Shown here: positions 12,601-24,173 of the stretch, one piece after another
Numbering within the stretch: the first letter of the stretch is position 1
Layout of the letters: each line of letters opens with the position of its first letter
Assembly (NCBI GenBank): GCA_026745465.1
Contig: JACYXH010000477.1
Span: 542,501-606,500, forward strand
Direction of reading: 5' to 3'
Length of the DNA: 64,000 nt
From: Lota lota
Taxonomy: Eukaryota; Chordata; Actinopteri; Gadiformes; Lotidae
Notes under the pieces: generated by a model
Told to the model about the DNA's origin: nothing
The model's database searches: none
The model's input: only the letters and a program-made list of their open reading frames with translations
Program-made: the position numbers and the translations under genes

Positions 12601-15600
12601 TTCTCGACTAAAGCGCTTCTTCCCCTGCTTCTCCATTCCTACTCCACACACAACATACACAGTACACACAGCATGTTTCAAATGGGGAAATAAGAAGCAA
12701 CACTTTCCGTTGCTCTCGCTGAAAAGGACCAATGTCATTTCACTGCACTTTATACTTTACACTGAGAATGGGACACCTTAAAGAACTTGAAGTTGAACGG
12801 GTTTTCTTCCAGACCTTTGACATTGAGCTCGGAGAACTGCAGCTCTTTCTCGTGGTCCCGCAGGAGGAAATGAAAGTCCTCCCAGGTGATTAGCTCCTTG
12901 TCTTCGAAGCCAGCGGTCTTCAGCATGGCCTGTATCCCCTCGTCCGCCTGGCTCTTAGACAGAGCGCCGTTGGAGATTTCAATGAACGAACTGCAGTGTA
13001 CACACACAGAGAGAGAGAGAGAGAGAGAGAGAGAGAGAGAGAGAGAGAGAGAGAGAGAGAGAGAGAGAGAGAGAGAGAGAGAGAGAGAGAGAGAGAGAGA
13101 GAGACAAAGATCTTACAACTGGTAGTGCATTGTTACTGCACAGGAAAGTCTGTTGGTACCACACATACAGCAACAACAACAACAACAACAACAACAACAA
13201 CAACAGCCCAAACACCTGAGCATCCTGGTGAAGTCCTCCTTGGATAAGAAACCATTTCCACCAATGTCATGCATTGAGAACATCAGCTTTGACTTCTCCT
13301 CGGAGGATCCTACACAGACACACATGAGTCAAACACGAGTCCCACAGTGAGATCCGCTCGAATGAGGCATTGTACGTTGTCTCACGACAATGTTTGTCGT
13401 TTCATTTTAGTCCATTTTACCCTTCATGAAGATAACGATGACATCCAGAAACTCTTGGAAGGAGAGATAGCCGTTGCCGTCTTTGTCGGCCAGCGTGAAC
13501 ATGGAGTCCACGAACAAGGAGTCGGGCTTGAGGCCCAGCGCATCAGCAAACTCGGTGGCTGCCAGCTCACACTGCAGAACCTGCCTGGTCTTCTTGCGGG
13601 CCACACCGCCCATGTCCCCCGCGTCACGCTTCTCTATCTCCAGCACCTGAACAAGCCGAGGGATGGCAGGGCTCACGTTGCATGTCGCCATGTTGTCATT
13701 AGCAATATCACACACGTCAGCTGGGGTTTTCCACAAAACCCGCTGAGGTCAACTTAAAGGCCTCCCAATCTGTTCTTTCAGCTTGAGGTCTGACCTCAAA
13801 CAAACGCTGACGCTGAGTCCGTGACCGAGACCCAAAGCTTGTACTTGTACCGCTGCTGCATCACAACAATGAGACCAGGTGGACCTCTGTTTGTTACCTT
13901 AGAAAACGCATGTCGAATGAAAGTTTCCACAATCTGAGCCCGCTGTTCTCTGGTCAGCGCCCCGCTGAGGAGGTCCTTCTCCCTCATCTGCCTCGTTCCG
14001 ATCTGCTGGCCCATTCCCTCCACCTCGGGACTCAGCTGCTTCACCAACTCTGCACGCCTGTTCTCGTCTCAAAAAACAACACCTTGTGTGGCAGGAGAGA
14101 GAATAAAACAGGCTTATAATTGGCTGATGGGGGAGGATGTAGAATGACCCATTATGAATCTGAATCTGATTAAAGCCACTGGAATGTAACGCACCATCAC
14201 TTTGTAAAAATGTAAACACCGATTTTTTATATCAAGTATAGAGCAATGCCATCTCAATGCGCATGACTCACCAGATCGTATTCTTTGGGTACTTTGAGCA
14301 AGAGCACTTTCTGATGATGGTCATTAGAGAGAAGGATATTCAGGTTGGTCTGATTGCACAGGTTGAGGCAGCGGACGACAGAGCCGGTATGGTCAAACAC
14401 CCGTACCCTCCTCTTTTCCTCGACCTCCACGCTAACGGACTGCAGGGGCTTCTTAGGGCCCAGCCACTCATAGGCTGTGAGTGGTCAGGGAGATAGAGAT
14501 AGAGGGGGGGGGGGGGGGGGGATGAAGGGTGGCCCAAGGTTAATCAGGCAATAGGACATTGCATGAAAAACAGGACTGGAGAAAGAAAGAACAGGATTGT
14601 GCTGTGGTCAGGGTGTTAGAGTCCCAGCTGAAAGATTAAGGGTTTAAACCCCCAATATCCACGGGCCATCTGTAGGTGACCTTGAGCTGACTTAAGACAA
14701 CTAACCGCTAACCTACACATCAATGACATATACACAGTATGTCCATATATATGTATGTTTATACATATAGATATACAAAAAATATATCTGTCACTTTGGA
14801 CTTACAGTGTAAGAGAAATAGAGACTGAAAGTAATCGAGAATCAAAGGGAAAACGAGAGAAAGACAGCTAGGAAGAAATAAAGCAAGCAAGAAATAAAGA
14901 AATAAAGAAGGGGGTGACATTAAAGTAACTTCGTACCCGCGATTCCAGAAGCGGGCTCTTCTGTTCTCTTCACGGCCATCCTTCTCTTTTGAAACTTTTT
15001 GTACCTGGACTTACGGATATACGCCACCAATAAAGCCACAAGAAGGCTCACTGTAGGGATAGAGTCGAAATAATCACCAATGAACATTGATAACAAAACA
15101 GGTAGTATTTAAAATGGCAATACTTCATGTTGATGCAATAGATATATGTTATGTTAAGATGTAAGGACTACCGACCTAGAGGGAAGAGGAACAAGCACAC
15201 AACAAATATGCCGAACCCAGCTTTGCTCCCATCAAAATAGTTGAGTGTGGTAAGTTGGGTGCAAGGGTGAAGCACTGATGCAATCACTTGCGCTGGCTGA
15301 GGACACGGGTCACCTAGGCGGGGGAGAAAAGAGCACAGAGAACATTTTCCATCTGTTGTTTTCAACGATCCACCTTTATCATTGCAGTGTGACATGGAAG
15401 TCAACCGAAGTTTCTTTTACCGTCTTTCCATAGGAACGCATGTTCCTGCACGTCGCTGGCCTCTGCCCCGGTGACCGCAACGAGGACATCCTGATATGTC
15501 ACGTTGCGGATCGTCCCGGATTTCACTATCTGTGAACAAACTGGAGACAGACAAAGGCTAGCTGGCCACTTGCCCTTTCATGGTGACAGAGGACACAAGA

Positions 15601-22226: not shown

Positions 22227-24173
22227 ATGACTTTCTACGATGACATTTACCCATTCTACCCGCTACAAAGGACCTCCTTCATCTTCAGCGGCCCCCTGCT
22301 CACCATTATCCTGGTGTTCCTGGTGCTGGCGTGCAGTCTCCTCATCATCCTGCCAGGTATCCGCGGCAAGGCGGTAAGTGACACCGGAGTTTGCCCACCA
22401 TTAAAATATAATTGCAGACACATTTTGACTTTTTTTTATATCCAGTGTGGTTCTAGCGCTCGTGGTAGACCGGTACGAGGTGAAGCACTGCCCGACGCTT
22501 GGGGCTCCAGTTCCTGTTGTGTTGTTAGTAATGAAACACGTCATCTGTTCCTCTCCTGCAGCGGTTCCTGTGGATGTTTCGTGTCATCCTCAGCTTGTTC
22601 ATCGGCGCTGTGATAGTGGGTGAGTTTGGACATTCTCCTCCCTGGACTGTCGTGTGTATCTCTTGTGTCAAATCAGTGTCACGAGCATCCACCTGACGGT
22701 TCTTGGTTATCTTTTTCTTTCTTTCAGCACTGAACTTCACCAGTAACTGGGCCGAGGGCAGGACGACAGCTAATGCAACCTATAAGTCGTTCAGCAATGC
22801 AGTTGTCGATGCTGAAATTGGTCTGCATGTCGGACTTTATGGCATTAATGTTACACTCCGAGGTGAGTCATTTTCCCCGGCGTGACCACTCTAAGCTCTT
22901 TGGTTTTGAGGGATTTCAACTTTTTGCACCATACACCTATGCGTTGTGTGACTAAGAGGCTTTTGTTCAGGCAGGCCGAACACTGCATTAAGGTGCACAG
23001 TGTCTTACTTTCAGTTGACTAATCTTATCAGCCATCAAACAAATGCTGTTGCCCTGTTTGTTTTTTCCTTTTTTTAATACCAATGCTATTTTTTATACAA
23101 CCTATGATATTAATCAATGGTTAATGGTTTCCCGAACAGGAAACCCTGTGATGCAATTAAACGAAACCATCGACTACAACGAGATGTTCAGCTGGGAGGA
23201 CTCCATCGAGGAGGAGTACAGGGATGCGCTGGAGAGAGGCCTGCCCAACCCCATCCTGTACATCGCTGAGAAGTTCACACTCAACAGCCCCTGTGGGCTC
23301 ATCTTCAGTACAGATACTCTGGACGATATGCCTCCGCCACTCTCTGGTAAAAAAAACCATCAACAAACATTTTGTAGAACAGAAAATGTAGAATATCTTC
23401 TCTTGGATCCAGATTTTGATGTGTTTTTCTCTCTCTCCCCAGGACGGCGTTTTGTTGCTGGCTGCTGGCCAACATCCTCCTCGCCATGCCAGTCATCCTG
23501 TACGCCGGCTACCTGATGATGGCCACGGCCGCCTTCATCTTCTTCTCCATGGCCTCCTTCTCCACCATTATGAATTTGCCACAATGCGCCTTTTGCATAG
23601 GAACCGGCTCCTTCGTCACAGAGTACAGCCATTCTTTCTGGTTGGCGTTAGCCACAGGTAAATAACAACAGCAGTCCACCCCAGACAACAAACTGATCAG
23701 GTTATTTTACACTGAACTTTCACCTTTGCATAGAGGGAAAGTTATTTTGTTGTTGTTGTTGTTTGTGGTAATGAACCGTTGAATGCTCTTCAGGTGTGCT
23801 ATGTGTGATCATCGGCATGGCGGTGGTGATGTTTGACTTTTTGATACCAGAGAAGATGAAGCAAGCCTTCAGTGTAGCTGTGGACAGTGAGGAAGAGGAG
23901 GACTCGGGGAAGGGTTACCTAAACTCTGTGTTCCTGGAGGAAGGGACCACATCACCTCTGACATCAGTAATCACTATAGTAAGTGGCTAACAACAAAAAC
24001 AACTTCTGAGAATTGGCTTATAAGGAACATGGTTCAAACTACTTGTATATTTCACCTCTCTGCGCATAGCCACAGTGATATTACTGCAATGTACATGTAT
24101 ATATGCATGTATACGTGATATATGTGAATTTCCTAATCAAGTCTTTGTTTTTCTGTTTCAGACTGATGTATGA
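22227..24173 (+). CDS. duoxa: dual oxidase maturation factor (DUOXA); one apparent frameshift
   Basis: Multi-pass ER/plasma-membrane protein that escorts DUOX out of the ER and stays in the active complex. Coding exons: 22227-22373, 22562-22619, 22728-22862, 23140-23346, 23443-23657, 23794-23978, 24162-24173. The protein starts [12 protein letters not shown], has a first membrane segment ([20 protein letters not shown]), an N-glycosylated loop (NFTSNW, NATYKS, NVTLR), the conserved [11 protein letters not shown] block, three more membrane segments, and an acidic tail. Exon 4 is one base short: it must end in phase 2 to join exon 5 ([10 protein letters not shown]) but ends in phase 1, the shift falling just after SPCGLIF. 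Read literally, translation stops in exon 5. Length with the shift compensated is about 319 aa, normal for the family. Confidence 0.93.

Follow-up and report, generated by a model that had tools for sequence, protein, structure and literature searches.

Three one-base frame breaks in the only duox/duoxa pair of the Lota lota assembly, and their probable origin in local consensus error

In other vertebrates the genes of dual oxidase (duox) and of its maturation factor (duoxa) form a divergent pair, and the closest references on the protein level are the DUOX1 sequences of PDB 7d3e and 6wxr, which we take to be human and mouse DUOX1. Natural alteration of a thyroid dual oxidase is also reportedly known from the giant panda, which is said to carry a DUOX2 variant; the panda is, however, a mammal with two DUOX paralogues.

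The functional consequences of duox loss in a fish are best described for zebrafish, where, according to the accessible part of PMC6398463, nonsense homozygotes for the single duox reach adulthood, cannot breed, develop goitre, have no T4 and are rescued by T4. The alleles sa9892 and sa13017 take away the single duox of a fish, as broken frames would imply here, but they are mutant alleles beside an intact wild type, and their homozygotes are hypothyroid (PMC6398463, same part). Indel errors that mimic pseudogenes are a documented fault of long-read assemblies, and the background of PMC12007338 mentions a hybrid human assembly in which 2,746 genes had such errors.

The burbot duox/duoxa locus

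The window considered here, i.e. the whole stretch of 64,000 nucleotides that was analysed (C477:542501-606500), is free of N and belongs to an assembly of 575,287,041 bases in 867 contigs. It carries a duox and a duoxa gene (Table 1) in the same divergent arrangement as the pair of other vertebrates. In the final duox model all introns (32 of 32) are bounded by GT-AG, both start and stop codons are present, and in-frame stops are absent from 31 of the 33 exons when these are checked one by one; according to the frameshift-aware alignment, the two remaining exons are open on each side of a break.

Table 1. Features of the duox/duoxa locus, in window positions
Feature	Position	Strand	Remarks
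duox (dual oxidase)	6608..20873	-	33 coding exons, 1,529 codons, start codon to C-terminal HHYENF and stop
duox exon with EF-hand 2	13216..13309	-	Ca-ligand positions 3 and 12 of the loop carry G for D and D for E, unlike the two PDB DUOX1 sequences
duox exon 17	13898..14082	-	one base missing at ~14067-14071, adjoining a run of six T
Run of 18 G	14504..14521		between both duox breaks
duox exon 13	15421..15540	-	one extra base at ~15515
Run of 25 C	16618..16642		exon 13 break lies ~1.1 kb away
duoxa (DUOX maturation factor)	22227..23990	+	at least 6 exons, ~319 codons; divergent neighbour of duox
duoxa exon 4	23140..23346	+	one base missing at ~23304-23307

Read through the breaks, burbot DUOX shares its domain order with vertebrate DUOX1, and the PDB DUOX1 sequences match the entire query of 1,518 residues with ~2030 bits. 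The N-terminal animal haem peroxidase-like domain (PF03098, 468.3 bits) is followed by EF-hands (PF13499 and PF00036, both exceeding the cut-off) and by a complete NOX core consisting of ferric reductase (PF01794), FAD (PF08022) and NAD (PF08030) domains, in which the HHYENF end with its C-terminal phenylalanine is aligned. The DuoxA domain was found as PF10204 (228.6 bits for the part before the break), and a later exon also matches it. Scores of the three DUOX enzyme domains and of the DuoxA domain lie far over the Pfam cut-offs, as do those of four of five overlapping EF-hand models, the exception being PF13202 (24.5 vs 25.9 bits). The end-to-end DUOX1 alignment and the singly checked exons without stops bear out the view of the initial annotation that the remaining exons are well conserved.

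What distinguishes the Lota lota copy from vertebrate DUOX1 is its one-base frame breaks and the EF-hand 2 loop changed at two positions. Besides, two histidines common to both PDB DUOX1 sequences, within ASHHFRR and THHLY, are replaced here by L and Y, and NOX5 lacks both of them too. Judging by the alignments, these EF-hand 2 and histidine changes may be lineage-specific or may be slight signs of relaxed constraint. In the NOX core, in what is a low-power comparison, private changes at sites otherwise common to human DUOX1, NOX2 and NOX5 number five in the fish, private changes of human DUOX1 number two, and 85 columns are invariant. One of the duox introns also contains a minisatellite of 7-base units (CACGAAG, then CACCAAG; window 9000-9225), spotted by eye, and at window 2626-3087 the minus strand holds a further gene, outside those of the initial annotation, as an open frame that matches the CARD family (PF00619, 53.8 bits).

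No second duox was found in the assembly: the peroxidase part, the C-terminal part and the DNA of exon 13 match this locus only, apart from distant paralogues, which are peroxidases at 28-32 percent and NOX proteins at 31-49 percent. The DuoxA family likewise matches this locus only in an assembly-wide search, giving no second duoxa.

Three frame breaks and what they do

Frames were followed with a purpose-written spliced, frameshift-aware aligner whose guides were human proteins. With the human guide, precisely two frame changes emerge for duox from the spliced alignment (+1 at ~15515 and -1 at ~14067), and the same aligner calls one in duoxa (-1 at ~23304). As assembled, neither gene can thus be read from end to end in one frame, duox being broken at ~15515 and ~14069, and duoxa at ~23305. 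The claim that three one-base breaks exist, all of them in this pair, is therefore confirmed, two belonging to duox and one to duoxa; the range of 15421-23346 originally given for them leaves out the site at ~14069. All three are single-base and fall within 9.2 kb of assembled sequence.

As assembled, the duox frame runs for 565 codons and meets a stop in exon 14 (~15312), and the truncated DUOX keeps only the peroxidase-like domain. The exon 17 break alone, with the right frame up to that exon, would give a stop 13 codons in, and the duoxa frame as assembled comprises 206 codons, ~168 of them native. An offset of the +1 in exon 13 by the -1 in exon 17 was considered and rejected, as ten stops are met before or at the second break. 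A fourth break suspected in the poorly conserved linker of duox exons 20-22 was rejected as well, because borders with better splice signals give an open frame there without lesion.

It would be logical to ask whether the breaks are merely apparent and the mRNA frames are preserved by alternative splice sites, a possibility which the initial annotation had raised. Exon 17 offers such a rescue in two ways, since an AG that follows a T-rich stretch, 20 bases in, brings back the frame with ~7 codons lost, and the exon can also be skipped in frame; it is the only one of the three with an alternative that keeps most of the conserved sequence. In exon 13, by contrast, the in-frame alternatives tried, with AG taken up to 120 bases upstream and GT up to 60 bases downstream, either lose much of the exon or exchange conserved residues for others, and none of the alternatives tried for duoxa exon 4 keeps native sequence. 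As rescue would be needed at all three sites, we regard splicing as a very improbable explanation.

In the neighbouring adam10, fan1 and apba2 no frame change was called with human guides, in agreement with the earlier description of them as unbroken, ~450 N-terminal apba2 codons being seen simply as open frame. The aligner is blind to breaks in stretches that differ too much from the guide to align, which concerns most of the apba2 N-terminus and parts of fan1 exon 1 (aligned at 114 of 417 only); breaks in these stretches would appear only as stops, and the frames there are open. Human apba2 has a short stretch inside its PTB domain whose counterpart (window 29587-29857, minus strand) was looked for and not seen in the minus-strand frames of 29480-30060; the apba2 reading frame is unaffected by this.

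Frequency of breaks within the window and elsewhere in the assembly

The initial annotation estimated a chance of about 7 percent that all three breaks would fall in the pair. Its codon totals (about 1860 and 2660) are corrected here to ~1,529 + 319 for duox and duoxa and to ~2,580 for the other three genes; the all-in-pair chance holds at ~0.07-0.08 (computed as ~0.076), yet it understates the excess over the rest of the assembly. As a yardstick for the latter we used protocadherin first exons, represented by 140 Cadherin_2 matches after 150 of 167 candidates had been scored. We counted 123 matches as clustered, C643 having 120 of them and C709 having 3; in 9 of these the open frame is shorter than 700 codons, giving ~0.03 breaks per kb on the assumption of 0.8 x 3 kb per exon and with breaks past codon 700 missed. 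On this basis 0.17 breaks are expected in the 5.6 kb of duox and duoxa, and the Poisson probability of three or more is 7e-4. The other 17 matches (16 on other contigs and C709:90462) were excluded; four of them are shorter than 700 codons, perhaps owing to another exon structure. Taking all 140, with 13 short frames, raises the rate to ~0.039 per kb and P to ~1.4e-3. These P values of ~0.001 are uncorrected, the finding itself having been picked from a scan. The protocadherin rate is, for its part, an upper bound on the error rate, since true pseudogenes will be among the short frames, and the yardstick genes are mostly long-exon ones which may be better polished than genes of many small exons amid simple repeats.

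Other families were inspected as well. At 18 Kir loci whose IRK domain is complete no break was seen, several of them ending at apparent exon borders; 12 further Kir loci are pieces of multi-exon genes and lay outside this one-by-one check. Among the clustered, apparently kcna-like matches on C26, C175, C216 and C839 (11 of 64 BTB_2 matches), ten frames have 488-593 codons. A survey of 7TM receptors, in which 147 of 982 candidates had been scored, was discarded as an error gauge, since its list ranks intact genes first. Three breaks in duox and duoxa thus exceed the assembly-wide rate, and a uniform error rate fails to explain them.

Several observations were made along the way. One kcna-like frame, at C26:743018-743257, has just 229 codons beside full-length ones and may contain a further frame break. 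At least 120 of the Cadherin_2 matches lie in one 0.5 Mb cluster (C643:146633-643925), a large protocadherin expansion, and a tandem array of at least 21 7TM receptor frames, among the matches listed, occupies C182:375532-594030. For MHC class II beta a search of the whole assembly, run without a positive control, gave no match; taken together with the genome size and the abundance of simple repeats, this points to a cod-like (gadiform) fish.

Consensus error or loss of dual oxidase

We propose that the three breaks most probably originate from local consensus error in a badly polished patch. Under this proposal duox and duoxa would constitute an ordinary functional fish pair, and the single-base errors would sit in ~9 kb (14.0-23.4 kb) that received too little polishing, the assembly itself being probably built from long reads. 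It is favoured by the presence of three lesions of the same kind within 9.2 kb, by the nearby G and C runs, and by genes that otherwise show no clear decay. Only the one-base indels were found, with no nonsense, splice-site or longer-indel lesion, and a true unitary pseudogene of such age should usually show stops or longer indels too. The 18-G run is 0.4 and 1.0 kb away from the duox breaks, and G or C runs of 19-30 bases also occur at 11.7, 16.6, 25.5 and 26.1 kb. The likeness to documented long-read errors is that single-base indels split otherwise normal genes, but PMC12007338, in its accessible text, deals with small genomes and mostly with homopolymer errors, whereas here two sites out of three fall outside long homopolymers and one touches a six-T run. 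Against an artefact stand also the fairly clean state of the assembly elsewhere, the excess of breaks itself and a repeat content that is not raised, simple repeats making up 2.77 percent of the break span vs 4.44 percent in the 3' half of duox, which has no break, and 3.89 percent in adam10. Given the clean assembly elsewhere, the ordinary repeat content and the non-homopolymer sites, the patch is something we infer rather than observe, and the same applies to the type of the assembly and to the absence of the breaks from DNA of the fish, whereas the breaks themselves are observed in the assembled sequence.

Real lesions, whether a loss in the lineage or null alleles of the sequenced fish, appear unlikely even when taken together. 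A fairly recent loss of the only duox/duoxa pair in the gadiform (cod-like) lineage could proceed from fixation of one null, after which constraint on both partners would fall and two more indels would follow, with thyroid hormone coming from diet and prey or relying on another peroxide source, and mucosal defence managing without DUOX. Such a loss accords with breaks being more frequent here than elsewhere in the assembly, with damage to both halves of one obligate complex, with the lack of a second copy in our searches, and with the unusual EF-hand 2 loop and the two replaced histidines; T4 rescues zebrafish duox mutants even in adulthood, so an outside hormone could in principle make it bearable (PMC6398463, accessible part). 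Nevertheless, five against two private NOX-core changes are no clear excess in a weak test, NOX5 shares the lack of histidines, and no other kind of lesion accompanies the indels. Homozygous zebrafish nulls do not breed, and three cis lesions need a long period of relaxed constraint of which little sign was found, EF-hand 2 being the main exception, so the loss is biologically improbable, and the possibility raised in the initial annotation that functional DUOX is lacking is not supported. Null alleles carried by the sequenced fish or by one of its haplotypes, the species keeping a working pair, would agree with the breeding of zebrafish heterozygotes but not homozygotes (PMC6398463, accessible part) and with an assembly that may display one haplotype only. 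Three independent rare nulls in cis are, however, much less likely than one, and a haplotype bearing them would hardly persist where no second copy was found and zebrafish homozygotes cannot breed, which makes this the most improbable of all the explanations weighed. Three lesions on one haplotype would mean that the lineage had lived long without DUOX, and this seems possible only with outside hormone or another source of peroxide. The original observation is thus confirmed, and its interpretation as assembly error or recent loss is partly supported.

If local consensus error is the source, the patch would lead to duox and duoxa being wrongly listed as lost genes in Lota lota. To our knowledge, no fish is without DUOX for thyroid hormone, and titles and abstract openings in the literature searched gave no report of a natural duox loss in a fish. 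Were the loss true, the burbot would be a vertebrate that makes or obtains thyroid hormone although it lacks the one enzyme regarded as the source of the peroxide, and a main mucosal source of peroxide would be missing.
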